DNA from: a candidate division TA06 bacterium
GTDB lineage: Bacteria; Edwardsbacteria; AC1; EtOH8
Direction: 5' to 3'
NCBI GenBank assembly: GCA_016235665.1
Contig: JACRJI010000011.1
Span: 62,001 to 126,000, forward strand
Length of the DNA stretch: 64,000 nt
Position numbers and translations under genes: made by a program. The notes under the pieces were generated by a model. The model was not told the origin of the DNA. It worked only from the letters and a program-made list of their open reading frames with translations, and searched no databases. This document shows positions 2,945 through 30,492 of this stretch, in pieces (position 1 is the stretch's first letter; every line of letters begins with the position of its first letter).

Positions 2945-3466
2945 ATGAAAAAGACACTTACCCTGGCAGCCGTCCTGCTGATAACCGCCGGCGTGGCCCT
3001 GGCCCAGTGTCCCATGGGACAAGGAGAACCGGGCGGACAAAGGATCGAGCGCCGCGAGATCAAGATCATGGACGGAGACGGACCCAGGGGGATGGGAATG
3101 GGCCGGGGCCAATGGTGGGAAAACCCTGAGATCGCCAAGAATCTTGGTTTAACAGCCGAGCAAACGGAAAAGATAGATCAGTTGGCTCTTAAACACCGCA
3201 AGGACATGGTGAAACTGGAAGCTGATATGAAGATCGCCCGGATGGAATACCAGGACATCCTGGAAGGCAACGCCACCGACAGCGAGATCCGCAAGAAATC
3301 CGGAGAGATGAAAGCACTAATGAACAAACTGCATGACGCCAAGACCGAACATTTGCTGGAATTGCGAAAGGTTTTGACCGCCGAGCAGCAGAAGAAGCTG
3401 AAGGCTGAGCACCGCGGAATGCGCCGCCAGATGAAGAACGACCCCGGCTGCTGTGATAAAGAATAA
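2945..3466 (+). CDS. LTXXQ-family periplasmic protein (Spy/ZraP-like)
   Basis: This 173-aa protein has a signal peptide ending at ALA/Q (residue 20), a Met/Gly-rich linker, and two LTXXQ motifs (LTAEQ at 69-73 and again at 144-148) framing a charged helical hairpin, which is the Spy/CpxP/ZraP fold signature. The tail DPGCCDKE could bind metal. Its ATG follows AAGGAGC. It ends the ECF operon, and a strong terminator follows. ZraP in enterobacteria is controlled by a sigma-54 two-component system, and here a sigma-54 activator gene is next. That pairing may be coincidental because the terminator separates them. Confidence 0.82.
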   Translation: MKKTLTLAAVLLITAGVALAQCPMGQGEPGGQRIERREIKIMDGDGPRGMGMGRGQWWENPEIAKNLGLTAEQTEKIDQLALKHRKDMVKLEADMKIARMEYQDILEGNATDSEIRKKSGEMKALMNKLHDAKTEHLLELRKVLTAEQQKKLKAEHRGMRRQMKNDPGCCDKE

Positions 3467-3488
3467 AATATTGGATTAATAATCAGCA

Positions 3489-3532
3489 AACGGGCCGTCC
3501 CGCAATCTGCGGGACGGCCCGTTACTATTTTA
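3489..3532 (+). terminator. Strong intrinsic terminator closing the ECF operon
   Basis: A 16-bp perfect stem, 3489-3504 with 3508-3523, encloses a three-base loop and is followed by a T-rich stretch. Confidence 0.88.
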
Positions 3533-3541
3533 AAAATCCAG

Positions 3542-3570
3542 TTGACACTATATAATTGTTATGGTAGACT
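3542..3570 (+). promoter_or_regulatory. Sigma-70-type promoter placed for a leaderless message
   Basis: TTGACA (3542-3547), 17 bp, TAGACT (3565-3570). The ATG of the activator gene at 3578 is only 7 bp beyond the -10 box and no Shine-Dalgarno site is seen, so transcription would start at or beside the start codon. The TTG inside this -35 box is in frame with the gene but cannot be its start if this promoter is real. Confidence 0.6.
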
Positions 3571-3577
3571 ATTACCC

Positions 3578-5848
3578 ATGAGTAACAGATGGCAAAGATA
3601 CGAGTTAGAGACCAAACTGGCCGGTTTATTGATCGTGCTGGTGCTTTTGGTCATCAACTTATCAGGGATCTGGTTGGTGTATAAAACAAAATCCCGGATG
3701 GATTCGATCCAGCTAAGACAGATGGAGTTGTTAGGGGTCTTGGCTCAAGGAGAACTGGTAAAAACCAAAGATCTGCCCAATGATTCGCTTTGGTCATCCT
3801 GGCAGCGCCTGGCCCAAAAAACAGGATTGGTCAGCATTGGATTGTTGGACGCCGCCGGCAGGGCAGTCTTTAAATACGACAAATACCAACCCTGGAATTT
3901 GGAACCTAAAACATATGAAAGATCTTCAGCCGTCATACCATCTTCCGTCTCGTTTAGTGAGAACGGGGTCGCCCTTTCCCCCGCCTACCAACGGTTGGGG
4001 CTTTTGTATTTTACCGCCTATTATAAGACCGGTCAGGGCCAGAGCATCCTGGCCCTGGAATACCCGGCCGGCGAAGAGGCCTCCATCGCCAGGGCAGCTA
4101 AAGTCCAGGTGATGGCCGGAGTCATAGGATTCGGGTTGATACTGATCATAGGACTATTCTATCTGAGGAGCATCTTTTCGCCTTTTAGGCAGATGGCTCA
4201 AAGCGCCCGCAGCAGTCTGGGCCAGGTGCCTTCCGGCCAATCCAGCTCCGATGTGGATCTGGTGGTGAAAACCTATGATCAAATGATAGAACAGTTAAAG
4301 GCCAAGGGTCAGACCTTGCAGAAGCTTTACGACAATGCCCGTGACCGGGCCGAGCAGAGTGAACTGATAAAAAAACAGATCGTGGACAGCATTGACAAGC
4401 CCCTGATCACACTGGACAGGAACGGAGAAGTAACCTCGTTCAACCGGGCGGCGGCCCAATTGGCAGGAGGGAGTGAGGCTGCAAATATCGCCCGATGGCT
4501 AAAAGAGAACAATCTTCCGGCCCGGATCGAGAACAAAAAGCCGCAGGTGTGGGAATCAAATAATTTAAAATACGGACCCCGGTGTCTGCAGGCCGAACAG
4601 TATGATCTTACCGATCCCGGGGGACAAAGCTCCGGCAGCGTCATAGCGGTGGCCGATATCACCGAGATCAGAAACATGGAGGAACAGGCCCGGCTTTACG
4701 ACAGCGTACTGCTGATGGCCCAGGCTTCCCAAAAACTGCTGGAGAAGATCACGCCCGAGATAGCGGCCTTAAAGGATCCGGCCTGCGCTGCCTTGGCCCA
4801 GCCAGGCCTGTGGCAAAAACATGTGGCCGAGATCGAGCGGGCGGTGGAGGACATGGGACAGTATCTGACCTACCAGCCGGCCGGGGTGCCGGAAGCAGGA
4901 TATTCTGAGATCATTTATGCTTCCCAGGCCATGGCCGATGTGCTGGAGATGGCCAGAAAGGTGGCCAAGACAGAGAGCACGGCGCTGATCACCGGGGAAT
5001 CCGGCACCGGCAAGGAACTGGTGGCCAGGGCCATCCACCGCCAGAGCCCCAGGAACTCCGGACCTTTCGTTTCCATCAACTGCGGGGCGCTGCCCGAGAC
5101 GCTTTTGGAATCGGAGCTTTTCGGATATTTGCGGGGCGCATTCACCGGGGCAGCCAAGGATAAACCTGGGCTGTTAAAGGCGGCCGAGGGCGGCACTTTC
5201 TTCCTGGACGAGATAGGAGAACTGCCGCTTTCTCTTCAGGTAAAGCTTTTACGGGTCCTTCAGGAGCGCGAGGCCACCCCGGTGGGCGGCACCAAGCCGT
5301 TCAAGGTTGATATCCGGCTGATAGCGGCCACCAACCAAAACCCGGAACAATTGGTAAAGGCGGGGAAATTCAGGCAGGATTTGTATTTCAGGCTTAATGT
5401 ATTTCCCATTGAAATGCCCCCGCTGCGCCGGAGGCCCGAGGATATCATTTTATTGGCCAATCATTTTGCCGAAAAACACTGCCAAAAGACCAAAACCGCG
5501 GTCAAACACTTCAGCAAGGCCAGCCTGGAGATATTGACCGGTTATCAGTGGCCGGGCAACGTGAGGGAACTGGAGAACGCAGTGGAACGGGCGGTGGTGA
5601 TGGCCATGGGGAATCTGATCAAGCCGGAGCACCTGAAAATTACGGAAGAAGAAGGGCAAAGTGTCTCCAAAAATGAAAAAGGGCTGGGTTTGCTGGAAGT
5701 ATCGGCCAGGGCGGCGGCCGCCTCCGAGTCCCAGATGATCAAAGAAATGCTGAAGGAAACCGGAGGCAATAAAAGCGAAGCTTCCCGCAAGTTAAAGATC
5801 AGCTACCGGGTGATGCTGAAAAAGATCAAGGATTACCAGTTGGGGTAA
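3578..5848 (+). CDS. Membrane sensor fused to a sigma-54-dependent activator
   Basis: The 756-aa protein has transmembrane helices at about 14-35 and 179-198 enclosing a periplasmic sensor region. A HAMP/coiled-coil stretch follows, then a PAS-like domain (about 262-370), a sigma-54 AAA+ domain, and a Fis-type helix-turn-helix (about 712-756, GGNKSEASRKLKIS). In the AAA+ domain, GESGTGKE (Walker A, about 473), GAFTGA (sigma-54 contact loop, about 519) and FFLDEIGELP (Walker B, about 541) are intact. There is no histidine-kinase or receiver domain, so signal input and activation lie in one chain, unlike the PilS/PilR pair. The pilin operon downstream begins with a sigma-54 promoter, its likely target. 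I chose the ATG at 3578 because an earlier TTG lies in the promoter. Confidence 0.88.
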   Translation: MSNRWQRYELETKLAGLLIVLVLLVINLSGIWLVYKTKSRMDSIQLRQMELLGVLAQGELVKTKDLPNDSLWSSWQRLAQKTGLVSIGLLDAAGRAVFKYDKYQPWNLEPKTYERSSAVIPSSVSFSENGVALSPAYQRLGLLYFTAYYKTGQGQSILALEYPAGEEASIARAAKVQVMAGVIGFGLILIIGLFYLRSIFSPFRQMAQSARSSLGQVPSGQSSSDVDLVVKTYDQMIEQLKAKGQTLQKLYDNARDRAEQSELIKKQIVDSIDKPLITLDRNGEVTSFNRAAAQLAGGSEAANIARWLKENNLPARIENKKPQVWESNNLKYGPRCLQAEQYDLTDPGGQSSGSVIAVADITEIRNMEEQARLYDSVLLMAQASQKLLEKITPEIAALKDPACAALAQPGLWQKHVAEIERAVEDMGQYLTYQPAGVPEAGYSEIIYASQAMADVLEMARKVAKTESTALITGESGTGKELVARAIHRQSPRNSGPFVSINCGALPETLLESELFGYLRGAFTGAAKDKPGLLKAAEGGTFFLDEIGELPLSLQVKLLRVLQEREATPVGGTKPFKVDIRLIAATNQNPEQLVKAGKFRQDLYFRLNVFPIEMPPLRRRPEDIILLANHFAEKHCQKTKTAVKHFSKASLEILTGYQWPGNVRELENAVERAVVMAMGNLIKPEHLKITEEEGQSVSKNEKGLGLLEVSARAAAASESQMIKEMLKETGGNKSEASRKLKISYRVMLKKIKDYQLG

Positions 5849-19278: not shown

Positions 19279-21507
19279 ATGAAACCGAAATCATACCGGT
19301 GGTTGTTTCTTTTAGTTCCATTCATTAGCGGCTTTGCCTACGGCCAGACAACCTGCGATAGCTTGTATGTTAGGACCTTGGGCTCCTATCCCTCGGGACA
19401 ATCTTATTCGGTCAAATGCTTCCAGAACGACGGGCATGATTACGCCTTAGGTATTTTTGGCGAGGGGGTCCGCATAATAAATATTGATTCGGTTGCAAAA
19501 CCGAAAGTGGTCAGCGCTTTGTCTTTGTACAACTGCGGACGCATAACCGATATAACCATTCAAGGCACATTTGCTTATTTAATGGGCGGATACGCTGGCT
19601 TATGGATAGTTGACGTTTCCGACCCCTATAATCCGGTGAAGAAAGGGTATTGCCCATTATCGTCTTCGAGCAATCTTGTCGCTGTTAATTCTCAGTACGC
19701 GTTTGCCGGAGTATTTTACGATGAAACCACGGGGGGATTGCATATTGTTGATATAAGCGACCCGGACAATCCTTTCTTGGTGACCACTTATGATTCACGC
19801 TTTGTCGGTGGCGTTGCTACCAAGGATTCGCTGGTGTTTGTTACTTTTGACGGGAAACTACATGTTCTAAATGTTGTTAATCCAATGGATATTAAAACAC
19901 TTTATATTGACTCTATAAATACCATAAGTTCATCAGGCAAGGGTTTATTGATAAATGCTAATTACCTTTATTCCAATACTAACATTTACGATATAGCTGA
20001 TCCGGCCAATCCGGTGCATTATTCTACGTCAGATTTTAGTTCTGGTGCGGGTTGCTACAATTTTGTCATACAAGACAGTGCTTTATATGGGGCGTGCGGT
20101 GGTATCTTAGATTTAGCAATTAATAAGATTGTTGACCCAGTAACGATCACAAATTTAGGTAGCATGGATACTCCAGGTTGGGGCAATTATCTTGATGCCA
20201 TTAGTGAAAAATTATGTATGGCAAGTTCTTTGTCTCCTGATTTTAACGGGATATCAATATATGATATTTCAACACCCTATACGCCACAAATTGCTTCGTA
20301 TATTACTGATTTAAAATCATATGGGAATAGCAAATTAATAGCAAGAAGCGATACTGTATTCTTATGTGGGAGGGGGATTGAGATCTACGATGCGGTAGAC
20401 CCAAACAAAATAAAATTGATTGCGGCATTTTATGACATTAATCGTTCATTTGAGGATGTGATTTGGGACCAAAACTATATCTATGCTGTTGATGGGCTGA
20501 GCGGGTTATGTGCATATGATTATTCATCAAAAGATTCGCTACGATTAACTGATTCACTTTATCTTTCGGAATATTATCTGTCAATCACTGCCTCTGGTAA
20601 CACTGTTTTTGTTGGTGCAGATAACAACTTGAAAGTGGTTGACATATCAAACCCTGATAGTCTAATATCCCTTGGTCAAACTGTTTTTACTGATTATGTT
20701 TGGGATATTGAAGTTAAAAATGATTTAGCATATATCGCCAATGGTCAGCAGGGCCTTTACATATATAACGTGGCCAACAAAGACAGTCTTTATGAAGTAG
20801 GGCATTGCCTGACGCCGGGCTCAGCTTGTGGAGTTATTATTAATGGAAATTATGCCTATATAGCGGACTATGATTCGGGCTTGGCAATTGTTGACATTGG
20901 TGATGCGGCTAATCCCCAGGTTATAGGCTCCCTTGACACACCCGGTTTGGCGCGGTATGTCGCCTTTGATACCAGTTTAATATATCTGATGGACGACAGC
21001 ACCGGGATCAGGGTAATTGATGCAAGTGTCCCAGTAAATCCCCAGGAAGTGGGTTATTACTCGCTAAGATATTATGAGCCTGGGATGGGTGAATCTTATA
21101 ATTACATGAAAAGCATTTGTTCTGGTGCCGGTCATATTTATGCAAATACATTATATGGCCTGCAGATATATGAATATTACGGACCGAACGGTGTTTTAGC
21201 AAACGATTCTGAATTTGAGTCTAATTATTGTTTTAAGTTAATTGGCTCATATCCAAACCCTGCAGTGAACTTTCTATCAATAAGCTACGAGATAACAACT
21301 CCCGGCACATACGAATTGTCAATTTATAATGTTCTGGGCCAGAAAATATCATTGATCGATAAGGGCAATAAAGTTCCCGGCCAATATACCCTAAAATGGA
21401 ATTGCAAAGACGCCAACGGCCACAAGGTTGCCCCAGGGGTGTATTTCTACCAACTTCGCGACAAAGGCAACAACCGAGTTACCAAGAAAACAGTAGTGAT
21501 CAAGTAA
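19279..21507 (+). CDS. Secreted LVIVD-type beta-propeller protein with C-terminal sorting-like domain, copy 2
   Basis: The 742-aa paralogue of the preceding propeller has the same order: signal peptide (MKPKSYRWLFLLVPFISGFA/YGQ), LVIVD-type blades throughout, and the same FlgD/T9SS-type ending (GSYPNPAVNFLSISYEI...). The ATG at 19279 follows AAGGGGAAT; an in-frame TTG at 19258 has no support. The central halves of the two copies have diverged, but 19716-19901 is almost base-identical to 17252-17437, and the last 250 bp are also very close. The stop abuts the ferredoxin ATG, so this is the copy nearest the intact ferredoxin gene. Confidence 0.82.
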   Translation: MKPKSYRWLFLLVPFISGFAYGQTTCDSLYVRTLGSYPSGQSYSVKCFQNDGHDYALGIFGEGVRIINIDSVAKPKVVSALSLYNCGRITDITIQGTFAYLMGGYAGLWIVDVSDPYNPVKKGYCPLSSSSNLVAVNSQYAFAGVFYDETTGGLHIVDISDPDNPFLVTTYDSRFVGGVATKDSLVFVTFDGKLHVLNVVNPMDIKTLYIDSINTISSSGKGLLINANYLYSNTNIYDIADPANPVHYSTSDFSSGAGCYNFVIQDSALYGACGGILDLAINKIVDPVTITNLGSMDTPGWGNYLDAISEKLCMASSLSPDFNGISIYDISTPYTPQIASYITDLKSYGNSKLIARSDTVFLCGRGIEIYDAVDPNKIKLIAAFYDINRSFEDVIWDQNYIYAVDGLSGLCAYDYSSKDSLRLTDSLYLSEYYLSITASGNTVFVGADNNLKVVDISNPDSLISLGQTVFTDYVWDIEVKNDLAYIANGQQGLYIYNVANKDSLYEVGHCLTPGSACGVIINGNYAYIADYDSGLAIVDIGDAANPQVIGSLDTPGLARYVAFDTSLIYLMDDSTGIRVIDASVPVNPQEVGYYSLRYYEPGMGESYNYMKSICSGAGHIYANTLYGLQIYEYYGPNGVLANDSEFESNYCFKLIGSYPNPAVNFLSISYEITTPGTYELSIYNVLGQKISLIDKGNKVPGQYTLKWNCKDANGHKVAPGVYFYQLRDKGNNRVTKKTVVIK

Positions 21508-22008
21508 ATGCTTTCCGAAAAACTAAAATCGACCGGCCTGGCCGATGCCTCCGACATCCAGGCAGCCTGGCCCTCCGAAGAAAGGCTGAAGAAAGGCCCG
21601 GTGGTCATCGTGGAATGCTTCCAACAGATCCCCTGCAACCCCTGCGAGACCAGCTGCCCCCAGAAAGCCATAGTGGTGGGTGAGGACATCAACGCCCTGC
21701 CCCGGGTGGACCACTCCAAATGCAACGGCTGTACCATCTGCGTCTCACGCTGCCCGGGGCTGGCCATCTTCGTGATAGACCAAAAATATTCCGAGACCGA
21801 GAGCGCCATCACCATGCCCTACGAGTTCCTGCCCCTGCCGGAGAAGGGCCAGGTTGTGGAAGCGCTGGACCGGGAAGGCAAAAACTGCTGCCGGGCAAAA
21901 GTCATCCGGGTGGTAAACACCAAGGCCCAGGACAAGACGCCGCTGGTGACTTTGGCCATCCCCAAGGGCAGGGAAAAGGATGTCAGGTTCTTTAAACTAG
22001 TTCCCTGA
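21508..22008 (+). CDS. Two-[4Fe-4S] ferredoxin subunit of a flavin dehydrogenase
   Basis: In this 166-aa protein cluster 1 is built from Cys43, Cys46 and Cys50 (CNPCETSCP) with Cys37 or a cysteine of the second group, and cluster 2 from Cys72, 75, 78 and 82 (CNGCTICVSRCP). A beta-rich C-terminal domain follows. Proteins of this length and layout accompany HcnA/B/C-like and proline dehydrogenase sets and carry electrons between flavin subunits. The ATG follows the stop of the propeller gene directly. The first 29 codons have a decayed second copy at 19064. Confidence 0.84.
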   Translation: MLSEKLKSTGLADASDIQAAWPSEERLKKGPVVIVECFQQIPCNPCETSCPQKAIVVGEDINALPRVDHSKCNGCTICVSRCPGLAIFVIDQKYSETESAITMPYEFLPLPEKGQVVEALDREGKNCCRAKVIRVVNTKAQDKTPLVTLAIPKGREKDVRFFKLVP

Positions 22009-22144: not shown

Positions 22145-23281
22145 ATGGGCAAACTGAAAATGATCCTGCTGGCCTGCCTGCTGATGCCCGTTCTGGCTTT
22201 GGGGCTGGAGCCGCCCACCGATCTTAAATTGGCGGATGCTCCTAACGATGACGGTTCCATAATCATCATCACCTGGAAGCCGTCGGTCTCCGAAAGCGAG
22301 CCCGGCTTTGCCGGCTATAACATCGAACGGTCGGAATTCCCGTCCGACTCGTTTGCCATGATAGCCTGGGTGCCAAAGGGGACCGATGTCCACGAGGACA
22401 ATTCCATCGAGGCCATGGGCAAAAACTTTTATTACCGGATAGCGGCGGTGACCGAGGACAGCATTATCGCTTTGAGCGCCATTGCCGGTCCGGTCGCCAC
22501 CTGCCAAAGCTGGTTCCATACCGGCAAGCTCAATACCTTGTTCGGCACCATCCTGTTCATCTCCATCACCATGCTTTATATCTTCTGGGCCCGCCGGGGC
22601 AACCTGTTCATCCGGCGCATCGCCGGCCTGGATGCGGTGGAAGAGGCGGTGGGCAGGGCCACCGAGATGGGCAAGCCCATCCTTTACTGCAACGGCATCG
22701 GGCTGATAGACTCCATTTCCACCGTGGCGGCGCTGAACATACTGGGGCAGATTTCCAAGAAAACAGCCGAGTACGATACCCCCTTGCTGGTTCCCACCGC
22801 CGACCCGGTGGTCCATGCGGTGGCCCGGGAAATGGTGAAAGAGGGATACAACAGCGCCGGCCGTCCCGACCTGTTCAAGGAAGACTCGGTCTATTTCATC
22901 ACCAGCGACCAGATGGGCTATGCCGCTGCCCTGGCCGGGATCATGTCCCGGGAAAAGCCGGCCACCAACTTTTTCATGGGCTATTATGCCGCCGAGTCAC
23001 TGGTGCTGGCCGAATCCGGAGCGGCCACCGGAGCCATCCAGATAGCCGGGACCGACCAGATCTCCCAGCTGCCGTTCTTCATCACCGCCTGCGACTACAC
23101 CCTGATCGGCGAGGAGCTTTACGCCGCCTCGGCCTACCTGTCCAAAGAACCGCTCCTGGTGGGCAGCCTTAAGGGCCAGGATGCCTGCAAGCTGCTGATC
23201 ATCCTGCTGGTGCTGCTGGGCACCATCGGGGCGTTGCTTTTCCGTTCCGATTTCGTTTACAATCTTTTCAGCATTCATTAA
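22145..23281 (+). CDS. Cassette A gene 1: FN3-like domain plus DUF6754-like membrane protein
   Basis: The 378-aa protein has a signal peptide (1-20), an FN3-like extracytoplasmic domain (about 22-117, LADAPNDDGSIIIITW), a transmembrane helix (about 130-148), a conserved soluble domain (about 155-345) and a second helix (about 347-366). The conserved domain has IRRIAGLDAVEEAVGRATEM, AEYDTPLLVP, TREKPATNFF-type and ACDYTLIGEELYAASAYLS motifs, which I recall as Pfam DUF6754 (not checked). The topology puts this domain in the cytoplasm. It is followed by three membrane proteins, and the whole four-gene set is repeated at 25642-28971. Function is unknown. Confidence 0.82.
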   Translation: MGKLKMILLACLLMPVLALGLEPPTDLKLADAPNDDGSIIIITWKPSVSESEPGFAGYNIERSEFPSDSFAMIAWVPKGTDVHEDNSIEAMGKNFYYRIAAVTEDSIIALSAIAGPVATCQSWFHTGKLNTLFGTILFISITMLYIFWARRGNLFIRRIAGLDAVEEAVGRATEMGKPILYCNGIGLIDSISTVAALNILGQISKKTAEYDTPLLVPTADPVVHAVAREMVKEGYNSAGRPDLFKEDSVYFITSDQMGYAAALAGIMSREKPATNFFMGYYAAESLVLAESGAATGAIQIAGTDQISQLPFFITACDYTLIGEELYAASAYLSKEPLLVGSLKGQDACKLLIILLVLLGTIGALLFRSDFVYNLFSIH

Positions 23282-23296
23282 AGGATCAAAATAGTT

Positions 23297-23917
23297 ATGA
23301 AAAAAAATGTGCCTTTGGCTATAGTGCTGATACTGGGGATAGCCTTCATCATCCAGTTCTTTATCCCCAGCAGGCCTTCCCAGGTAGCCTTTAACACCAT
23401 GATCGAATGGGACCTGATCCTTTATGTGTTTGCCTCCATCATCGCGGTGGACAGCCTGGTCCGGCACCATGTCATCAAGATCAACCGCAGGAACAAAGGC
23501 TGGGGGTACAGCGTGGTCTATCTGGGAGCCGCATTGTTCATGGTGCTGTCGGCCGTTTTCAGCGGCACCCGCGAGGGCAGCTTTTACATGAAGATATTCT
23601 ATTACACCCTGGCCCCCATGCAGTCAACCATGTTCGCCATCCTGGCCTTTTACATGGCTTCGGCCAGCTACCGGGCCTTTAGGGCCAAATCATTTGAAGC
23701 CACTCTGCTTTTGATCTCGGCCTTTATAGTGATGATCGGCCTGATCCCCCAGGGGGCGGCTCTTTGGAGCGGATTTCCTAAACTTTCGGAATGGCTGCTG
23801 CAGGTCCCCAACATGGCGGCCAAGCGGGGCATAACCTTCGGCATCGGCTTGGGCATCACAGCCACCTCGCTGAAGGTGATCCTGGGCATCGAACGCAACT
23901 GGATGGGAGGGTATTGA
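23297..23917 (+). CDS. Cassette A gene 2: polytopic membrane protein, unknown
   Basis: The 206-aa protein has about six transmembrane helices (near 6-24, 38-58, 72-90, 105-124, 133-152, 175-193). Conserved with its paralogue at 26845: IIQFFIPS after the first helix, MFAILAFYMASASYRAFRA in the middle, VPNMAAKRGITFGIGLGITA and the end GIERNWMGG. No transporter or enzyme motif is recognised. It starts 15 bp after gene 1 with an AAGGA site, and gene 3 begins 1 bp after its stop, so all are likely co-translated. Probably the membrane core of a complex with genes 1, 3 and 4. Confidence 0.8.
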   Translation: MKKNVPLAIVLILGIAFIIQFFIPSRPSQVAFNTMIEWDLILYVFASIIAVDSLVRHHVIKINRRNKGWGYSVVYLGAALFMVLSAVFSGTREGSFYMKIFYYTLAPMQSTMFAILAFYMASASYRAFRAKSFEATLLLISAFIVMIGLIPQGAALWSGFPKLSEWLLQVPNMAAKRGITFGIGLGITATSLKVILGIERNWMGGY

Positions 23918-23918
23918 G

Positions 23919-24770
23919 ATGTTGAAATTCCTATCCAAATTCGGCAAACTGGACCGGAGGCTGGTATTCGTTCTTTTGATCGTGACCATACTGATCCCGC
24001 TGTTGTTCAGCGTCAAGTCCAGATTCTATGTGGATGATTCCACCAGGACCTTGTACGATCATGTCGATAAGATAGAACCCAACGGCCGGGCCCTGTTGCT
24101 TTCGTTCGATTACGATCCCCAGGTGGCGGCCGAGCTTGATCCCATGGCCCGTGCCGTGCTGCGCCACTGTTTTGCAAAGGGGATAAAGGTGGTGGGAATG
24201 GGTCTGCAGCCCCAGGGCGACGCCATCGGCGAAGCCATCATGACCCAGATAGCCAGTGAATTCAATAAGAAGAACGGAGTTGATTATTGCTATTTCGGCT
24301 ACCGGCCCGGGGCCACCATTGTCATGCTGCAGATGGGGGTGAACGTCAAACGGGCCCTGCCGCTGGACTACTACCAGACCCCTTATGACAGCCTGCCTAT
24401 GATGCACAACATCCACAATTATGACGACATCGCCCTGGTGCTCTCCCTGGCGGGTTCCACCTGGCCGGTAAGCTGGATGATCTACGCCGGGACCAAGTTC
24501 AAAGTCAAGATCGGGGCCGGACAGACCGCGGTGATGGCTCCGGATAACTATCCCTTTCTCCAGACCGGCCAGTTCATAGGGCAGCTGGGCGGAATGAAGG
24601 GCGGGGCTGAGTACGAACAGCTGATAGTGGATAACGGTTATTACAAAAAACCCGGTATGGCCAGCAAAGCCATGAGCGCCATCGCCTATTCCCATATCCT
24701 GATAATATTGCTGATCGTTCTGGGCAATATCGGATATTTTGTCACCCGCCGGCTGGAAGGCTCCAAATAA
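23919..24770 (+). CDS. Cassette A gene 3: extracytoplasmic domain between two membrane helices, unknown
   Basis: The 283-aa protein has helix 1 at about 15-33, a 220-residue domain that would face outward, and helix 2 at about 257-277. The domain has alternating strand and helix text (GRALLLSFDYDPQ, VLRHCFAKGIKVVGMGLQPQ) like a Rossmann-type fold. It holds blocks shared with the paralogue at 27480: YDSLPMM, NYDDIALVLSLAGS, SWMIYAGT, TAV...YPFLQTGQ, GMKGGAEYE. No catalytic signature is recognised. The strict conservation around SLAGS and GQTAV suggests a binding site. It is the third gene of the four-gene set. Confidence 0.8.
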   Translation: MLKFLSKFGKLDRRLVFVLLIVTILIPLLFSVKSRFYVDDSTRTLYDHVDKIEPNGRALLLSFDYDPQVAAELDPMARAVLRHCFAKGIKVVGMGLQPQGDAIGEAIMTQIASEFNKKNGVDYCYFGYRPGATIVMLQMGVNVKRALPLDYYQTPYDSLPMMHNIHNYDDIALVLSLAGSTWPVSWMIYAGTKFKVKIGAGQTAVMAPDNYPFLQTGQFIGQLGGMKGGAEYEQLIVDNGYYKKPGMASKAMSAIAYSHILIILLIVLGNIGYFVTRRLEGSK

Positions 24771-24805
24771 GGATCTTTAACATTCATTGACAGAGGATAA
24801 AAATC

Positions 24806-25438
24806 ATGAGCTTGAATCCCTGGGTCTGGATAGCCGCCCTTTTAAGCCTGGCTATATTTTCCTATCTGTACAAGGATAACCCGGTCTTCCGTTTTGCCGA
24901 GCACCTTTTCACCGGCCTGTCGGTGGGCTACTACCTGGTGCTTTACTGGAACAGCTACGCCCTGCCTTATATCGTGACCCCGCTGCAGGATCACCGCTGG
25001 ATAACCCTGATCCCGATGGCTTTGGGCATGATGTATCTTTTCCGGTTCATTCCCAAGCTTAATTACCTGATCCTGATACCCATAGCCATCAGCCTGGGTT
25101 TCTGGAATGGAATGTCCATCCCGCTGACCATTGAGGCCGACGTGCTGAAGCAAATACAGGGAACCATGGTCAGGGCCGCTATGATGAACAACCTTTGGGA
25201 TCCCAGAAGCGGATTGATGGCGGGGCTGCTGATACTGACCGGGGTGGTCTGCACCATCTCCTATTTCTATTTCTCCCGGGAGCACAAGGGAGCCTTAAAG
25301 GTTTCCGCCAACATCGGGATCTGGTTCGTGATGATAGGCTTTGGGGCCACCTTTGGATTCACAGTGATGGCCAGGGTCTCGCTGCTGATCGCCCGGATGC
25401 AATTCCTGTTCACTGACTGGATACATCTGATAAAGTAA
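24806..25438 (+). CDS. Cassette A gene 4: polytopic membrane protein, unknown
   Basis: The 210-aa protein has about six helices (near 5-20, 36-54, 68-80, 85-103, 137-155, 165-195). Blocks shared with the paralogue at 28339: NPWVWIAALLSLAIFSYLYK, FRFAEHLFTGLSVGY, ISYFYFSREHKGALKVSANI, and GFGATFGFTVMARVSLLIA with the end FLFTDWIHLIK. The acidic and aromatic residues in membrane segments could form a channel, but no known family is recognised. It ends cassette A; 203 bp of repeat-bearing sequence follow before cassette B. Confidence 0.8.
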   Translation: MSLNPWVWIAALLSLAIFSYLYKDNPVFRFAEHLFTGLSVGYYLVLYWNSYALPYIVTPLQDHRWITLIPMALGMMYLFRFIPKLNYLILIPIAISLGFWNGMSIPLTIEADVLKQIQGTMVRAAMMNNLWDPRSGLMAGLLILTGVVCTISYFYFSREHKGALKVSANIGIWFVMIGFGATFGFTVMARVSLLIARMQFLFTDWIHLIK

Positions 25439-25641
25439 ATCAAAACGGGACGCAGATGAACGCAGATTCCGCTGATCTTTAGCTTTATCGGGGCTGAAAC
25501 TAAAGCATTAATCCATTCTGTGGCGGAAACTGCATGATATATCCAGGTATTTCATCCATTGATATTTGTGATGCGACTTTGTGCTGAACTTTGAGTAAAA
25601 ATCACCCAAGAAATATAATCAACCACAAATGGAGAAAATTA
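25439..25641 (+). repeat. Gap between cassettes with a CAG-type dispersed repeat
   Basis: GGGACGCAGATGAACGCAGA (from 25447) belongs to the repeat family also found at 61065 and, in parts, at 14285, 30535 and 52165. The rest is AT-rich, and I see no promoter or gene in it. Confidence 0.55.
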
Positions 25642-26835
25642 ATGAGGCAAAAAATACCGGGGCTGCTTCTGGTCCTGTTTTGGGCTTCGCTGTGCCTGGC
25701 CCTGCCGGCCCAGCAGATTCCCGTGACAGCCGAACCGGCGGCGGCGGCCATTGCCCCAGCTCCGGAGGTCAAAGCCGGGGACACACCCAACGACGGCGGG
25801 AACGCCATCACCGTCACCTGGCAGGCATCGCCGGACGAGGCTAACGGCCTGGTGGAAGGATATGAGATACTGCGTTCTGAGACACAGGACGGGGTGTTTT
25901 CCAAGGCAGGTTATGTGCCCTACGGCTTTACCGAATTTGACGACCAGGACGTGCCCAAGAATGCCAGCGATTATTATTATCAGGTCAAGGCCATAGGCAG
26001 GGGAGCTGAGCTGTTCAGTTTGAGCGCCGTCTCCAATCCGGCCCAGGCCCGCGAACAATGGTTCAACACCGCCCGGATCAACGCCCTGATCAGCTGCATC
26101 CTGTTCACCCTGATAGTGATCATATTCATCACCCGGGCCAAGCGGGGCCAGAGCCTGTTCATCCGGCGGATCGCCGGGCTGGCGGCGGTAGAGGAGGCGG
26201 TGGGCCGGGCCACCGAGATGGGACGGCCCATTCTTTACGTACCAGGCCTTTCATCCATTTCGGATGTGGCCACCATCGCTGCCCTGAACATCCTGGGACA
26301 GGTGGCCAAGAAAGCCGCCGAGTACGACACTCCGTTGCTGGTCCCAAACCGGGACCCGGTGGTGTTCACCGTGGCCCAGGAGATCGTCAAGTCAGCCTAC
26401 GCCGAGATCGGCCGTCCCGACGCCTACAACCACGATTCGGTGTTCTTTCTGACCGACAGCCAGATGGGCTTTGCCTCCGGGGTTGACGGCATCATGACCC
26501 GGGAGAAGCCGGCCACCAATTTCTTTTTGGGGATGTTCTGGGCCGAATCGCTGATCCTGGCTGAGACCGGGGCCTCCACCGGGGCCATTCAGATCGCCGG
26601 CACCGACGCCGTCAATCAGCTGCCGTTCTTCATCACCGCCTGCGACTATACTCTGATCGGCGAGGAGCTATACGCCGCCTCGGCCTATCTTTCGCGGGAG
26701 CCGATGCTGCTGGGAACCATGAAAGGCCAGGACTGGAGCAAGGCCGTCATAGTGCTGCTGCTGGTCGGTCTGGTCACCGCCCTGATCTTTCCCGGGGCCC
26801 GGGATTTCATCCTGAAAATTCTTAAGGTAGGTTAA
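25642..26835 (+). CDS. Cassette B gene 1: FN3-like domain plus DUF6754-like membrane protein
   Basis: The 397-aa paralogue of the gene at 22145 has a signal peptide, an Ala/Pro linker, an FN3-like domain (GDTPNDGGNAITVTWQAS), a helix, the conserved cytoplasmic domain (IRRIAGLAAVEEAVGRATEM, AEYDTPLLVPN, TREKPATNFF, ACDYTLIGEELYAASAYLSR) and a last helix. The cytoplasmic domain is far better conserved between the two copies than the FN3 part, so the shared job is inside the cell or at the membrane, and the outer domains may differ in what they bind. The ATG at 25642 follows a GGAG site; an earlier TTG is unsupported. Confidence 0.82.
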   Translation: MRQKIPGLLLVLFWASLCLALPAQQIPVTAEPAAAAIAPAPEVKAGDTPNDGGNAITVTWQASPDEANGLVEGYEILRSETQDGVFSKAGYVPYGFTEFDDQDVPKNASDYYYQVKAIGRGAELFSLSAVSNPAQAREQWFNTARINALISCILFTLIVIIFITRAKRGQSLFIRRIAGLAAVEEAVGRATEMGRPILYVPGLSSISDVATIAALNILGQVAKKAAEYDTPLLVPNRDPVVFTVAQEIVKSAYAEIGRPDAYNHDSVFFLTDSQMGFASGVDGIMTREKPATNFFLGMFWAESLILAETGASTGAIQIAGTDAVNQLPFFITACDYTLIGEELYAASAYLSREPMLLGTMKGQDWSKAVIVLLLVGLVTALIFPGARDFILKILKVG

Positions 26836-26844
26836 GGAGTAAAA

Positions 26845-27483
26845 ATGAAAAGACAGATACCATTGATAATAGTGCTGACCCTGGGGACGGCTTTCTTCAT
26901 CCAGTTCTTCATCCCCAGCCAGATCTCAACTGACATCTACCAGACCACCCTGCAATGGGAGATTATCATCAGCGCCTTCGCCATCGTGCTGGCCATCGGA
27001 AGCCTGATCAACCATCATTCGCTCAAGATCAAAAGGCGCAAGCCGCACTGGTGGAACAGCATCGTGACCATGGTGGCATTGGCGGTGATGGCCCTGCTGG
27101 GGATACTGGGGAGGGTCCAGGGCTTGGAGCCGCTGAGGCAGCTTTATAACACCCTGTTCCTCTATGTCCAAGCCCCGATGGACTCGGCCATGTTCGCCAT
27201 ACTGGCCTTTTACATGGCCTCGGCCGCCTACCGGGCCTTCAGGGCCCGCTCCAAGGAGGCAACGCTACTGCTGATCTCCGGTTTTATCGTGATGCTGGGC
27301 GTAATTCCCTTTGGCTCCCTTCTCTGGTCGAAGATCCCCGACATAGCCGAATGGATCCTGATGGTCCCCAACATGGCCTCAAAGCGGGGGATCCTGTTCG
27401 GAGTGGGACTGGGAATGACCGCTACTTCGCTGAAAATCATTTTGGGCATTGAACGCAGCTGGCTGGGAGGAGGCGGCAAATGA
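26845..27483 (+). CDS. Cassette B gene 2: polytopic membrane protein, unknown
   Basis: The 212-aa paralogue of 23297 has the same helix plan and the same blocks (IQFFIPSQIS, MFAILAFYMASAAYRAFRA, VPNMASKRGILFGVGLGMTA, GIERSWLGGG). It starts 9 bp after gene 1 with AAGGAGT and overlaps gene 3 by 4 bp (ATGA). No known family. The tight overlap argues for a fixed stoichiometry with gene 3. Confidence 0.8.
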   Translation: MKRQIPLIIVLTLGTAFFIQFFIPSQISTDIYQTTLQWEIIISAFAIVLAIGSLINHHSLKIKRRKPHWWNSIVTMVALAVMALLGILGRVQGLEPLRQLYNTLFLYVQAPMDSAMFAILAFYMASAAYRAFRARSKEATLLLISGFIVMLGVIPFGSLLWSKIPDIAEWILMVPNMASKRGILFGVGLGMTATSLKIILGIERSWLGGGGK

Positions 27484-28328
27484 AGATATTTGAGAAACTG
27501 ACCAAGATCCCGCGCAGGTTCATCTTCCTGCTGGTGGCCCTATCGGTGGTGCTTCCTTTGATCATACCCATGAACCTGCCCACCCTGCCGGGCAAATACA
27601 CGGTAAAGCTGTACGACTACATCGAAAAGATACCACCCCAGAGCCAGCCGGTGGTGATTGCAGCCGATTACAGCCCTTCGATGATGCCGGAGCTGCAGCC
27701 CATGCTGGAATCCATCATCCGGCATTGTTTTGCCAAAAAGATCCGGGTGATCGTCCTGACCCTGGACCCCAACGGAGCGGCGCTGTCGGAGGCCGCCCTT
27801 AATAAGATAGCACCCGAGTACGGGGCCCGCAACGGCCAGGATTACGTTTTCCTGGGGTTCAAGCCCGGCTATTCCATCGTGATGATGTCCATCGGCGAGA
27901 ACTTCCGCCAGGCTTTTCCCACCGACTTTTACGGAACTCCGCTGGACAGCCTGCCGATGATGGCCCACGTCCGGAACTACGCCGACATCCCGATCGTGGT
28001 CTCCATCGCCGGAAGCGCCGTGACCCAGAGCTGGATAGCCTACGCCGGGACCCGTTATCATGCCAACGTGGGCTCGGGATGTACCGCGGTCAGCACCGCC
28101 GACTACTATCCCTTCCTGCAGTCCGGACAGCTGGTGGGGCTTTTGAACGGAATGAAGGGAGCCAGCGAGTACGAGTATCTTAACCAGAAGAACGGCTACA
28201 CCAAGGCGCCCCGGGTGGCCGGCAAGGGGATGGACGCTGTCTCCATCGTCCACCTGCTGCTGATGGCCTTCATCATCCTGGGCAACATCGGGTACTTGAT
28301 GACCCGGCACAACCTGAGCAAGAAGTAA
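27480..28328 (+). CDS. Cassette B gene 3: extracytoplasmic domain between two membrane helices, unknown
   Basis: The 282-aa paralogue of 23919 has helices near 15-33 and 257-276. Shared blocks: RHCFAKKIRVIVLTLDP, LDSLPMM, NYADIPIVVSIAGS, SWIAYAGT, TAV...YPFLQSGQLVG and GMKGASEYEYL. The outward domain looks like an alpha/beta fold without catalytic signature. Its start overlaps the stop of gene 2. Confidence 0.8.
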   Translation: MKIFEKLTKIPRRFIFLLVALSVVLPLIIPMNLPTLPGKYTVKLYDYIEKIPPQSQPVVIAADYSPSMMPELQPMLESIIRHCFAKKIRVIVLTLDPNGAALSEAALNKIAPEYGARNGQDYVFLGFKPGYSIVMMSIGENFRQAFPTDFYGTPLDSLPMMAHVRNYADIPIVVSIAGSAVTQSWIAYAGTRYHANVGSGCTAVSTADYYPFLQSGQLVGLLNGMKGASEYEYLNQKNGYTKAPRVAGKGMDAVSIVHLLLMAFIILGNIGYLMTRHNLSKK

Positions 28329-28338
28329 GGAGCAAGAA

Positions 28339-28971
28339 ATGATATTTTCAACCAATCCCTGGGTGTGGACCGCAGCCATCCTGACCCTATGCATCTTCTC
28401 ATTTTTATACAAGGAGAACCCGTTCTACCGCTTTGCCGAACACCTGTTCGTGGGCATTTCGGCTGGTTACGGGGTGGCGATCTACTGGAACAACGCTATA
28501 GTTCCCAATCTTTACGTTCCGCTTTTCCAGCACCACGTCTGGTGGTTCATCATACCCGGCCTTTTGGGCATGATGTTCTTTTTCCGCTTCAGCCAAAAGC
28601 TGGCCTGGCTGATACTCATTCCCATGGCCGTGTTGCTGGGCACCAGCAGCGGAATGAGCCTGGCTCCCACTTTTCAGACCAACATATTGAAGCAGATGCA
28701 GAGCGCCCTGGGCGATGCCACCAATCTCAAGCTCGGCGGATGGGGCCTGGTCTGGGGCATAGTCACCCTGTTCGGGGTGATATCCACCCTGAGCTACTTC
28801 TTCTTTTCCCGGGAACAAAAAGGACTGCTGAGGGTCTCGGCCAACATCGGGGTCTGGTTCATCATGATCGGCTTCGGGGCCAGTTTTGGCAACACCGTGA
28901 TGGGCCGTATATCCCTGCTGATAGGCAGGGTGCAGTTCCTGCTGACCGACTGGATACATATCATTAAGTAA
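28339..28971 (+). CDS. Cassette B gene 4: polytopic membrane protein, unknown
   Basis: The 210-aa paralogue of 24806 has the same length and helix plan. Shared blocks: NPWVWTAAILTLCIFSFLYK, YRFAEHLFVGISAGY, LSYFFFSREQKGLLRVSANI and the end FLLTDWIHIIK. An AAGGAGC site precedes the ATG. It closes cassette B; the BFD-like subunit of the dehydrogenase set follows after 106 bp. Confidence 0.8.
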   Translation: MIFSTNPWVWTAAILTLCIFSFLYKENPFYRFAEHLFVGISAGYGVAIYWNNAIVPNLYVPLFQHHVWWFIIPGLLGMMFFFRFSQKLAWLILIPMAVLLGTSSGMSLAPTFQTNILKQMQSALGDATNLKLGGWGLVWGIVTLFGVISTLSYFFFSREQKGLLRVSANIGVWFIMIGFGASFGNTVMGRISLLIGRVQFLLTDWIHIIK

Positions 28972-29077: not shown

Positions 29078-29356
29078 ATGGCAAAAAACACCGACAAGAT
29101 AGTCTGTCGCTGCGAGGACATCACTGAGTCCGAAGTCCTGGCCGCCATTGAACAGGGCGCCACCACCGCCGACGAGGTCAAGCGCCTGACCCGGGCCGGG
29201 ATGGGACACTGTCAGGGGCGCACCTGCCGCCGGCTGGTCAACCAGATGCTGGCCAGAGCACTGAGACAAAAACCCGAGGCCCAGCGCCCCATCACCCAGC
29301 GGGCCCCTCTGCAACCCCTGTCGCTAAAGACTTTGGCGGAGTACCAGGAAACATGA
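29078..29356 (+). CDS. BFD-like [2Fe-2S] subunit of a flavin dehydrogenase
   Basis: The 92-aa protein has a BFD-like [2Fe-2S] domain with Cys10, Cys12, Cys45 and Cys50 (VCRCEDITESEV...GHCQGRTC), followed by a proline-rich tail. Proteins of this kind pair with DAO-type flavoproteins, as in archaeal proline dehydrogenases and opine oxidases. The stop overlaps the DAO-type gene start by 4 bp, which supports one complex. Confidence 0.85.
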   Translation: MAKNTDKIVCRCEDITESEVLAAIEQGATTADEVKRLTRAGMGHCQGRTCRRLVNQMLARALRQKPEAQRPITQRAPLQPLSLKTLAEYQET

Positions 29357-30492
29357 GCGCTTACAAATCAGACGCCGTCATCATCGGCGGGGGCATCATC
29401 GGAACGGCCTGCGGCTACTACCTTTCACAAAAGGGCCTGAAGGTGGCGATAGTGGAGCAGGGATATCTCTGCTCCGGCTCCACCGGGCGCTGTATCGGAG
29501 GCATCAGGCAGCAGTTCACCTCGTCCGGCTCCATCAGGCTGATGATGGAGAGCATCAGGCATTTTCAGAACATGGAGCAGGAACTGGGAACCGACGTCCA
29601 CTGGCACAACGGGGGATATCTTTTCCTGGCCCACAGCCCCGAGAAAAAACAGGCCTTCCTGTCAAACATCGCGGTACAGCAGGCGGCGGGGCTAAAGGAC
29701 GTGCGCTGGGTGGATGCCGCTGAATGCCGGGAGATAGCCCCGGGAATGGACGCCACCGGGCTTTTGGGCGGCTCGTACTGCCCCTCGGACGGTCAGGCCT
29801 ACCCCTTTGCGGTGGTCCAGGGCTACGCCGGGAAGATCAAGCAAGCCGGAGGCAGCATCCACACCTTTTCCAAGGTATCCCAGATCCTTCAGCAGGGGGG
29901 AAAGGTTACCGGTGTCAAGACCGATAGCGGCCGGGAATTCTCGGCCGGAGTGGTGATCAACGCGGCCGGCCCCTGGTCCAAGGACGTCGGCCAGATGGCC
30001 GGGATCGAGATCCCGGTGGAGGCCGAGCGGCACGAGGCCATGATCACCGAGGGGGTGGAGTATCTTGGTATCCCGATGCTGGTGGACTACCGGGCCGACG
30101 GAGGGTATTTCCAGCAATACAGGCACAACGGGCAGTTCATCGGCTGTTATTCCCCAGTTCCCAATGTGCCGGGCCATTCGGCCGATTCCACCTTTGAGTT
30201 CCTGCACCAGATGCCCAAGCGGATGCTGAAACTGGTTCCGGGACTGAAGGATCTGAAGGTCATCCGGCAGTGGGCTGGCAGTTACGAGAACACCCCGGAC
30301 GGCAACCCCATTTTGGACCGCACCGGCCTGGACGGATTCTACACGGTGGCCGGGATGTGCGGACACGGCTTTATGCTGGGCCCGGCCATGGGCCGGGTGG
30401 CGGCTGACCTGGTGTTCTCCAGTGACAAGACCACACCCTACCCGGAATTCGCCCTTAAGCGGGACTTCTCCCACGCCGAGGCAATGAAATAG
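29353..30492 (+). CDS. DAO-family FAD amine/imino-acid oxidoreductase (sarcosine oxidase beta/HcnC-like)
   Basis: The 379-aa protein has an FAD fold at the start (AVIIGGGIIGTACGYYLSQ), the DAO-family text CSGSTGRCIGGIRQQFTSSG, and the C-terminal RQWAGSYENTPDGNPILD, VAGMCGHGFMLGPAMG motif of sarcosine oxidase beta, glycine oxidase and proline dehydrogenase beta subunits. It would oxidise a secondary amine or imino acid and hand electrons to the HcnB-like and iron-sulfur subunits at 15281-22008. The arrangement with 2Fe-2S, 2x4Fe-4S and BFD subunits most recalls dye-linked L-proline dehydrogenase of Thermococcales. Sarcosine, glycine, hydroxyproline or opines remain possible. Confidence 0.88.
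   Translation: MSAYKSDAVIIGGGIIGTACGYYLSQKGLKVAIVEQGYLCSGSTGRCIGGIRQQFTSSGSIRLMMESIRHFQNMEQELGTDVHWHNGGYLFLAHSPEKKQAFLSNIAVQQAAGLKDVRWVDAAECREIAPGMDATGLLGGSYCPSDGQAYPFAVVQGYAGKIKQAGGSIHTFSKVSQILQQGGKVTGVKTDSGREFSAGVVINAAGPWSKDVGQMAGIEIPVEAERHEAMITEGVEYLGIPMLVDYRADGGYFQQYRHNGQFIGCYSPVPNVPGHSADSTFEFLHQMPKRMLKLVPGLKDLKVIRQWAGSYENTPDGNPILDRTGLDGFYTVAGMCGHGFMLGPAMGRVAADLVFSSDKTTPYPEFALKRDFSHAEAMK

Follow-up and report, generated by a model that had tools for sequence, protein, structure and literature searches.

What are two tandem copies of the same four uncharacterised membrane-protein genes doing in a bacterial genome, and do these genes form a system by themselves? The question arises from the window, a 64,000-nucleotide stretch of DNA on contig C11 of a 2.7 Mb Candidatus Edwardsbacteria genome (the host genome). 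A first-pass annotation of this stretch had read the genes as encoding a hetero-oligomeric envelope complex, present in two variants that differ in outer recognition. Here, we call the four genes A, B, C, and D, and examine their products, their distribution, and the company that they keep.

Two paralogous membrane modules

The window contains two A-B-C-D cassettes, copy 1 at positions 22145-25438 and copy 2 at positions 25642-28971. As first annotated, the eight open reading frames are in the same order in both copies; all lie on the + strand and all have ATG starts. The features are as follows.

22145..23281, + strand: A1, 378 aa; signal peptide, FN3, TM, cytoplasmic DUF6754, TM
22505..23239, + strand: DUF6754 match in A1, residues 121-365; PF20539, E 6.2e-112
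23297..23917, + strand: B1, 206 aa; six-TM protein, no Pfam/NCBIfam family
23919..24770, + strand: C1, 283 aa; TM, extracytoplasmic Rossmann-like alpha/beta domain, TM; AlphaFold2 mean pLDDT 96.3
24806..25438, + strand: D1, 210 aa; multi-TM protein, no Pfam/NCBIfam family
25642..26835, + strand: A2, 397 aa; signal peptide, FN3, TM, cytoplasmic DUF6754, TM
25759..26031, + strand: FN3 domain in A2, about residues 40-130; Foldseek to FN3 structures
26050..26784, + strand: DUF6754 match in A2, residues 137-381; PF20539, E 1.5e-120
26845..27483, + strand: B2, 212 aa; six-TM protein
27480..28328, + strand: C2, 282 aa; TM, extracytoplasmic alpha/beta domain, TM; first 4 bp shared with the 3' end of B2
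28339..28971, + strand: D2, 210 aa; multi-TM protein

Pairwise identity between the copies is 56% for A (over 325 aa), 57% for B, 44% for C, and 57% for D, and every motif block originally quoted as shared is found in each copy. Third codon positions are more diverged than second positions. In a tree of A, the two copies fall into separate, well-supported orthologous groups, each of which is Edwardsbacteria-wide. Thus, the similarity between the copies is not due to chance, and the duplication behind them is old and has been kept. Each cassette encodes one membrane module, and the two modules are paralogs. The host genome carries a third ABCD cassette on another contig (G000:C8:174865-178317).

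We find that A belongs to DUF6754 (Pfam PF20539) in every copy; A1 scores 373 bits and A2 scores 402 bits, where the curated cut-off is 27 bits. The Pfam entry gives no function, operon, partners, or extracytoplasmic arm. The FN3 domain is best seen in structure: the Pfam fn3 match is weak in A2 (13.6 bits, E 0.08, against a cut-off of 25) and none is found in A1, while the AlphaFold2 model of A (pLDDT 90) has a real FN3 fold. Foldseek comparison of this model with the PDB retrieves titin and neogenin FN3 domains (best E 1.2e-5, TMt up to 0.79). The early description of A as an FN3 plus DUF6754-like protein is therefore sound, and so is the remark that its inner domain is kept better than its FN3 part (72% versus 31% identity between copies).

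The other three proteins are harder to place. B has six hydrophobic segments and D has five clear ones, with a probable sixth in residues 16-58 that the scan does not separate; the six-helix description given to both thus stands for B and is likely for D. Loop charges place DUF6754 of A on the inner side and the alpha/beta domain of C on the outer side, the latter as had been proposed. In the AlphaFold2 model of C (pLDDT 96), two TM helices flank a Rossmann-like domain of six strands, and no fold in the PDB matched C at E <= 0.001. B, C, and D of the window have no match above any Pfam or NCBIfam cut-off, no solved relatives of them were found by sequence, and no known transporter family was found that would explain the set.

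Both alpha/beta domains carry strongly conserved polar residues. In DUF6754, R175, Q274, E302, E308, C334, D335, E341, and E342 are invariant (A2 numbering); in C, E72 is invariant, and D122, D150, Q218, and E231 are near-invariant. Given these residues, the two domains may have catalytic or binding roles. Homology between them was considered and rejected: they have equal numbers of strands and resemble each other in an end motif, but their profile comparison scored no better than shuffled columns. Homology between B and D was likewise rejected (probability 1%).

A conserved cassette and its cytoplasmic partners

The one-strand order A-B-C-D recurs in approximately 130 cassettes across many phyla (among them 79 loci in public genomes and 40 in further genomes; a few of the loci overlap). 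The public loci come from Cloacimonadota, WOR-3/Caldifarciminota, Edwardsbacteria, Stahlbacteria, TA06, and Coatesbacteria, among others. Across the 79 and 40 loci, the four genes are consecutive on one strand wherever the contig permits. The A-B, B-C, and C-D junctions have medians of 9, -4, and 5 bp, respectively. The four genes thus co-occur elsewhere in a fixed order, with short or overlapping junctions. The exceptions are solitary A genes without B-D: many Cloacimonadaceae carry an additional A downstream of D, and L152 is a further case. Between-family distances are correlated (r 0.75-0.84), and nearest-neighbour agreement between the distance matrix of A and those of B, C, and D is only 64-73%.

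All 10 genomes sampled from the window's phylum have DUF6754, as do 122 of 125 Cloacimonadota genomes and 22 of 81 genomes of the phylum of genome G206. In a broad sample, it is present in 29 of 98 genomes (20 of 89 families), and it was absent from all 14 control genomes. Outside G206's phylum, genomes carry one to six cassette copies, mostly two or three; the notion of two variants is therefore too narrow.

The idea of a four-gene system also has to be given up, since three cytoplasmic genes belong to it too. In distant genomes, a long MutL/GlmL-type gene (c11) and a second gene encoding approximately 375 aa (c12) lie directly upstream of A, with a small third gene (c10) upstream of c11. All seven genes form a single operon, ordered c10-A-B-C-D-c11-c12, in 11 genomes (ten from G206's phylum, plus G154). 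The order c10-c11-c12-A-B-C-D is found as a single operon at six other loci, one per genome. In Cloacimonadota and in the host genome, c10-c11-c12 are together, away from ABCD. The host-genome set lies on a different contig from the window (G000:C16:322569-326208), and comprises one c10, one c11, and one c12 against three ABCD cassettes.

The three genes track DUF6754 closely. Among the 98 genomes, the c12 profile matched 27, all inside the 29 with DUF6754. The c10 gene was found in 27 of the 29, in G233, and in one marginal case, and a strong full-length c11 in most of the 29 and in G233. G233 has c10 and c11 without DUF6754, in a genome that is 85% complete. Co-occurrence was also counted per family to limit the effects of kinship. 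At this level, c12 is present in 18 of 20 families with DUF6754 versus 0 of 69 without (Fisher test, P = 6e-17), c11 in 15/20 versus 1/69 (P = 6e-12), and c10 in 18/20 versus 1-2/69 (P about 1e-14). Within Cloacimonadota, c12 is found in 119 of 123 genomes. Because of the operon order and the co-occurrence of c10, c11, and c12 with DUF6754, the seven genes c10, A-D, c11, and c12 very probably constitute one functional unit.

The c11 protein matches PF13941 (MutL superfamily) with E values of 1e-124 to 1e-129 (431 and 416 bits; threshold 27). The ASKHA motifs DCGSTTTK, DIGGATTD, and GSGG are conserved in c11 (one member of the alignment is truncated before the first motif). These intact nucleotide motifs, together with what is known of the family, make ATP binding, and probably hydrolysis, likely. 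In the c12 protein, barrel-sandwich domains similar to RnfC_N/biotinyl-lipoyl domains are found together with a weak KOW match. We read the middle of c12 as a possible swivelling beta/beta/alpha domain; a sequence search of solved structures gave only weak matches. No similarity was found between c12 and A. Lipoylation of c12 was considered in view of its barrel-sandwich domains and of a lipoate-ligase-type gene, the commonest neighbour (6 of 112), but is not supported, as there is no conserved lysine at the hairpin tip.

Variable arms and a candidate machine

The accessory regions of A and C differ between lineages. A of the window has a single FN3 domain, and A of other lineages has several (about five in L122, by eye). 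FN3 is missing from several lineages, G206's phylum included, and A there is 243-280 aa long. In G206's phylum, it is C that is extended: its N-terminal arm, which lies in the cytoplasm and reaches up to 1200 residues, carries a zinc ribbon. Most of these arms also contain repeats of a W-L motif, up to 45 compared with a shuffled mean of 2.6. The proposal that the variants differ in outer recognition suits the FN3 arm, which evolves fast. As FN3 is absent from several lineages, where C can carry a cytoplasmic arm instead, outer recognition is an accessory feature.

We propose that the seven components form a probably ATP-driven inner-membrane machine with ABCD as its membrane modules, a reading to which we give an even chance. 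The products presumably assemble into a physical complex. B and D would make up a multi-TM core, with A holding its Rossmann-like domain (DUF6754) at the cytoplasmic face and C holding another alpha/beta domain at the outer face. The ASKHA ATPase c11, the adaptor c12 with its barrel-sandwich and swivel/KOW-like regions, and c10 would dock on the cytoplasmic face. Whether c11 drives or gates the A-B-C-D core by ATP is, in our estimation, evenly balanced; if it does, the ATP cycle of the c11 module could alter the state of the core, and work or a signal would pass to C outside. The arms might recruit lineage-specific partners, through FN3 repeats on A outside and, in G206's phylum, through the zinc ribbon and W-L motifs that C carries in the cytoplasm. 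A single c10-c12 set would then serve one to six ABCD modules, whose arms vary while the core stays fixed. Beyond an ATPase plus a membrane core, this mechanism is conjecture.

More tentatively, and with the balance somewhat against it, the system might represent an unrecognised class of envelope machine, in which a multi-helix core takes its power from a MutL-lineage ATPase with the actin/Hsp70 (ASKHA) fold and not from a motor of the ABC, AAA+, or ion-driven kind. Such a machine would have alpha/beta domains on both membrane faces and exchangeable recruiting arms, and it could be core equipment of Cloacimonadota, Edwardsbacteria, WOR-3, and their relatives.

Known envelope machines offer analogies. 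PilM of type IV pili, GspL, and FtsA are actin-like ATPases linked to envelope machines. The likeness, by analogy only, is an ASKHA-fold cytoplasmic protein coupled to inner-membrane subunits; in contrast, no sequence relation to these machines was seen, and the membrane parts B, C, and D have no Pfam family. TonB/Tol-type inner-membrane energisers use periplasmic force transducers (PMC12204202). Again by analogy only, the combination of an inner-membrane core and a periplasmic arm is similar. Relative to those energisers, however, the subunits are different, c11 suggests ATP over an ion gradient, and the system also occurs in a genome without Omp85 (G206). Dependence on an outer membrane was considered and discarded: with Omp85 in 92 of the 98 sampled genomes, its presence is not informative, and no Omp85 was detected in G206, which carries the system. 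Families resembling Dehalococcoides lack the system, and a role in gliding motility or filament building in G206's phylum is a speculative lead.

PF20539 and PF13941 were already known as single families; we rate the system as a whole as categorically new. No mention of DUF6754 was found in the literature searched, which was mostly open without subscription, and searches of similar scope on the phyla and on the ATPase brought up no paper about the system. A seven-gene membrane system whose gene order is kept across many phyla, and which is near-universal in at least Cloacimonadota and Edwardsbacteria, shows how much of bacterial cell biology is still missing. A shared context is now given to PF20539 and to the long MutL-type ATPases, which may appear in databases as glutamate mutase accessory proteins, and the nameless families B, C, and D, plus c10 and c12, become jointly testable. 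Clear predictions follow from the pairing of one ATPase module with many membrane modules, and from the difference in arms (on A outside, on C in the cytoplasm).

Competing explanations

The same components could instead form a sensory or signalling complex, one that reads envelope state or ligands through A, C, and the FN3 arms and uses the ASKHA protein and c12 as a cytoplasmic switch, not as an engine. A fast-evolving outer FN3 beside a nearly fixed inner domain, several paralogs per genome, and a cytoplasmic arm with a zinc ribbon and W-L motifs would all suit such a role, as would weak 7TMR-DISM-like similarity in 12 of 52 B members (best 0.001). However, the genes have no constant link to a kinase, cyclase, receiver, or output domain (response regulators account for only 3 of 112 neighbours), and near-universal presence within phyla suggests a core job. 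We thus consider signalling unlikely.

A reading of ABCD as a transporter complete in itself, and of c10-c12 as a distinct regulator that shares its operon, strikes us as quite improbable. It would account for genomes G204 and G223, which have ABCD and in which c11 and c12 were undetected (as was c10 in G223). Yet c12 never occurs without DUF6754 in the 98 genomes, and ABCD and c10-c12 are joined in three operon architectures.

A redox or ion-translocating complex of the Rnf/Nqr kind would have in common with the system described here a pair of multi-TM subunits and a periplasmic domain, and perhaps also a barrel-sandwich protein of the RnfC type in the cytoplasm. RnfC_N matches occur in 5 of 8 c12 members (best 2e-5; the host-genome c12 is below the cut-off), and B and D are about the size of RnfA/RnfE. 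Against this, B, C, and D of the window have no Fe-S motif, flavin-binding domain, or Rnf-Nqr or RnfD family match (E <= 1), and no Rnf-Nqr, RnfD, or FMN-binding family is among those listed for 50-61 relatives of each (for B and D, the 25 commonest families). Moreover, C334 of A is the sole fully conserved cysteine found, and an ASKHA ATPase is foreign to Rnf/Nqr. These differences make such a complex decidedly improbable.

Finally, c11 is a clear PF13941 member with intact nucleotide motifs, but the idea that it assists a B12-dependent mutase, as GlmL ordinarily does, and is associated with ABCD by accident is very hard to believe: it scores far under the GlmL (NF040745; 239.8 bits, cut-off 475) and Or-4 (NF040744; 222 bits, cut-off 600) equivalog cut-offs, is longer (about 600 aa versus about 450-500 aa for the weaker matches in genomes without DUF6754), and shares operons with ABCD membrane genes, while no mutase family is among the 25 commonest families of 112 neighbours or those individually scanned.

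Genes beside the system and its cassettes

In independent lineages, the most frequent neighbour of the system (cassette genes A to D with the cytoplasmic genes c10, c11 and c12) is a gene of the lipoate/octanoate-ligase type (LplA-B_cat). It lies either immediately 3' of D or inside the c11-c12 operon.

LplA-B_cat genes
L174 (c11-c12 locus, window's genome):5846-6601
L012:9329-10051
L067:9791-10582
L132:12569-13372

Also at L174, a PATAN/DUF4388-like gene and two proteins resembling roadblock/LC7 lie downstream of c11-c12 (3271-5729, minus strand); Pfam did not confirm the roadblock/LC7 identity of either protein.

By eye, the window's cassette pair is flanked by a 4Fe-4S ferredoxin-like gene and by a BFD-like and FAD-dependent oxidoreductase gene pair, as if it had been inserted within a split oxidoreductase operon.

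Genes flanking the cassette pair
window 21508-22008 and 29078-30492

The end of the 749-aa ORF that precedes the cassettes (window about 21240-21507) is similar to a type IX secretion C-terminal sorting tail. Elsewhere, a V-type ATPase C (AC39) subunit gene (L007:10363-11397, minus strand) precedes the third cassette, on contig C8, and in some genomes of the WOR-3 type (L010, L011, L013 and L151) the gene immediately after D encodes a capsule-assembly Wzi-like outer-membrane protein.

Cytoplasmic arm of C

In the phylum of genome G206 (L204-L222), C proteins have a zinc ribbon together with a long cytoplasmic arm of low complexity.

C with zinc ribbon and long arm, examples
L211:10732-15255
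L215:6590-9205

Most of these arms contain 6-45 repeats of an x-x-W-L motif, far more than shuffled sequences; this looks like a repeated docking motif.

A c11-like/c12-like fusion protein and a solitary c10

A separate fusion protein consists of a single chain with a Cys-rich stretch at its N-terminus, an ASKHA part that resembles c11, and a part that resembles c12.

c11-like/c12-like fusion
L086:3939-7109
G227, contig C51
many Cloacimonadota (ORFs of about 980-1060 aa)

Genome G204 has a solitary c10 (L221:8529-8873) without c11 or c12, and ABCD elsewhere.
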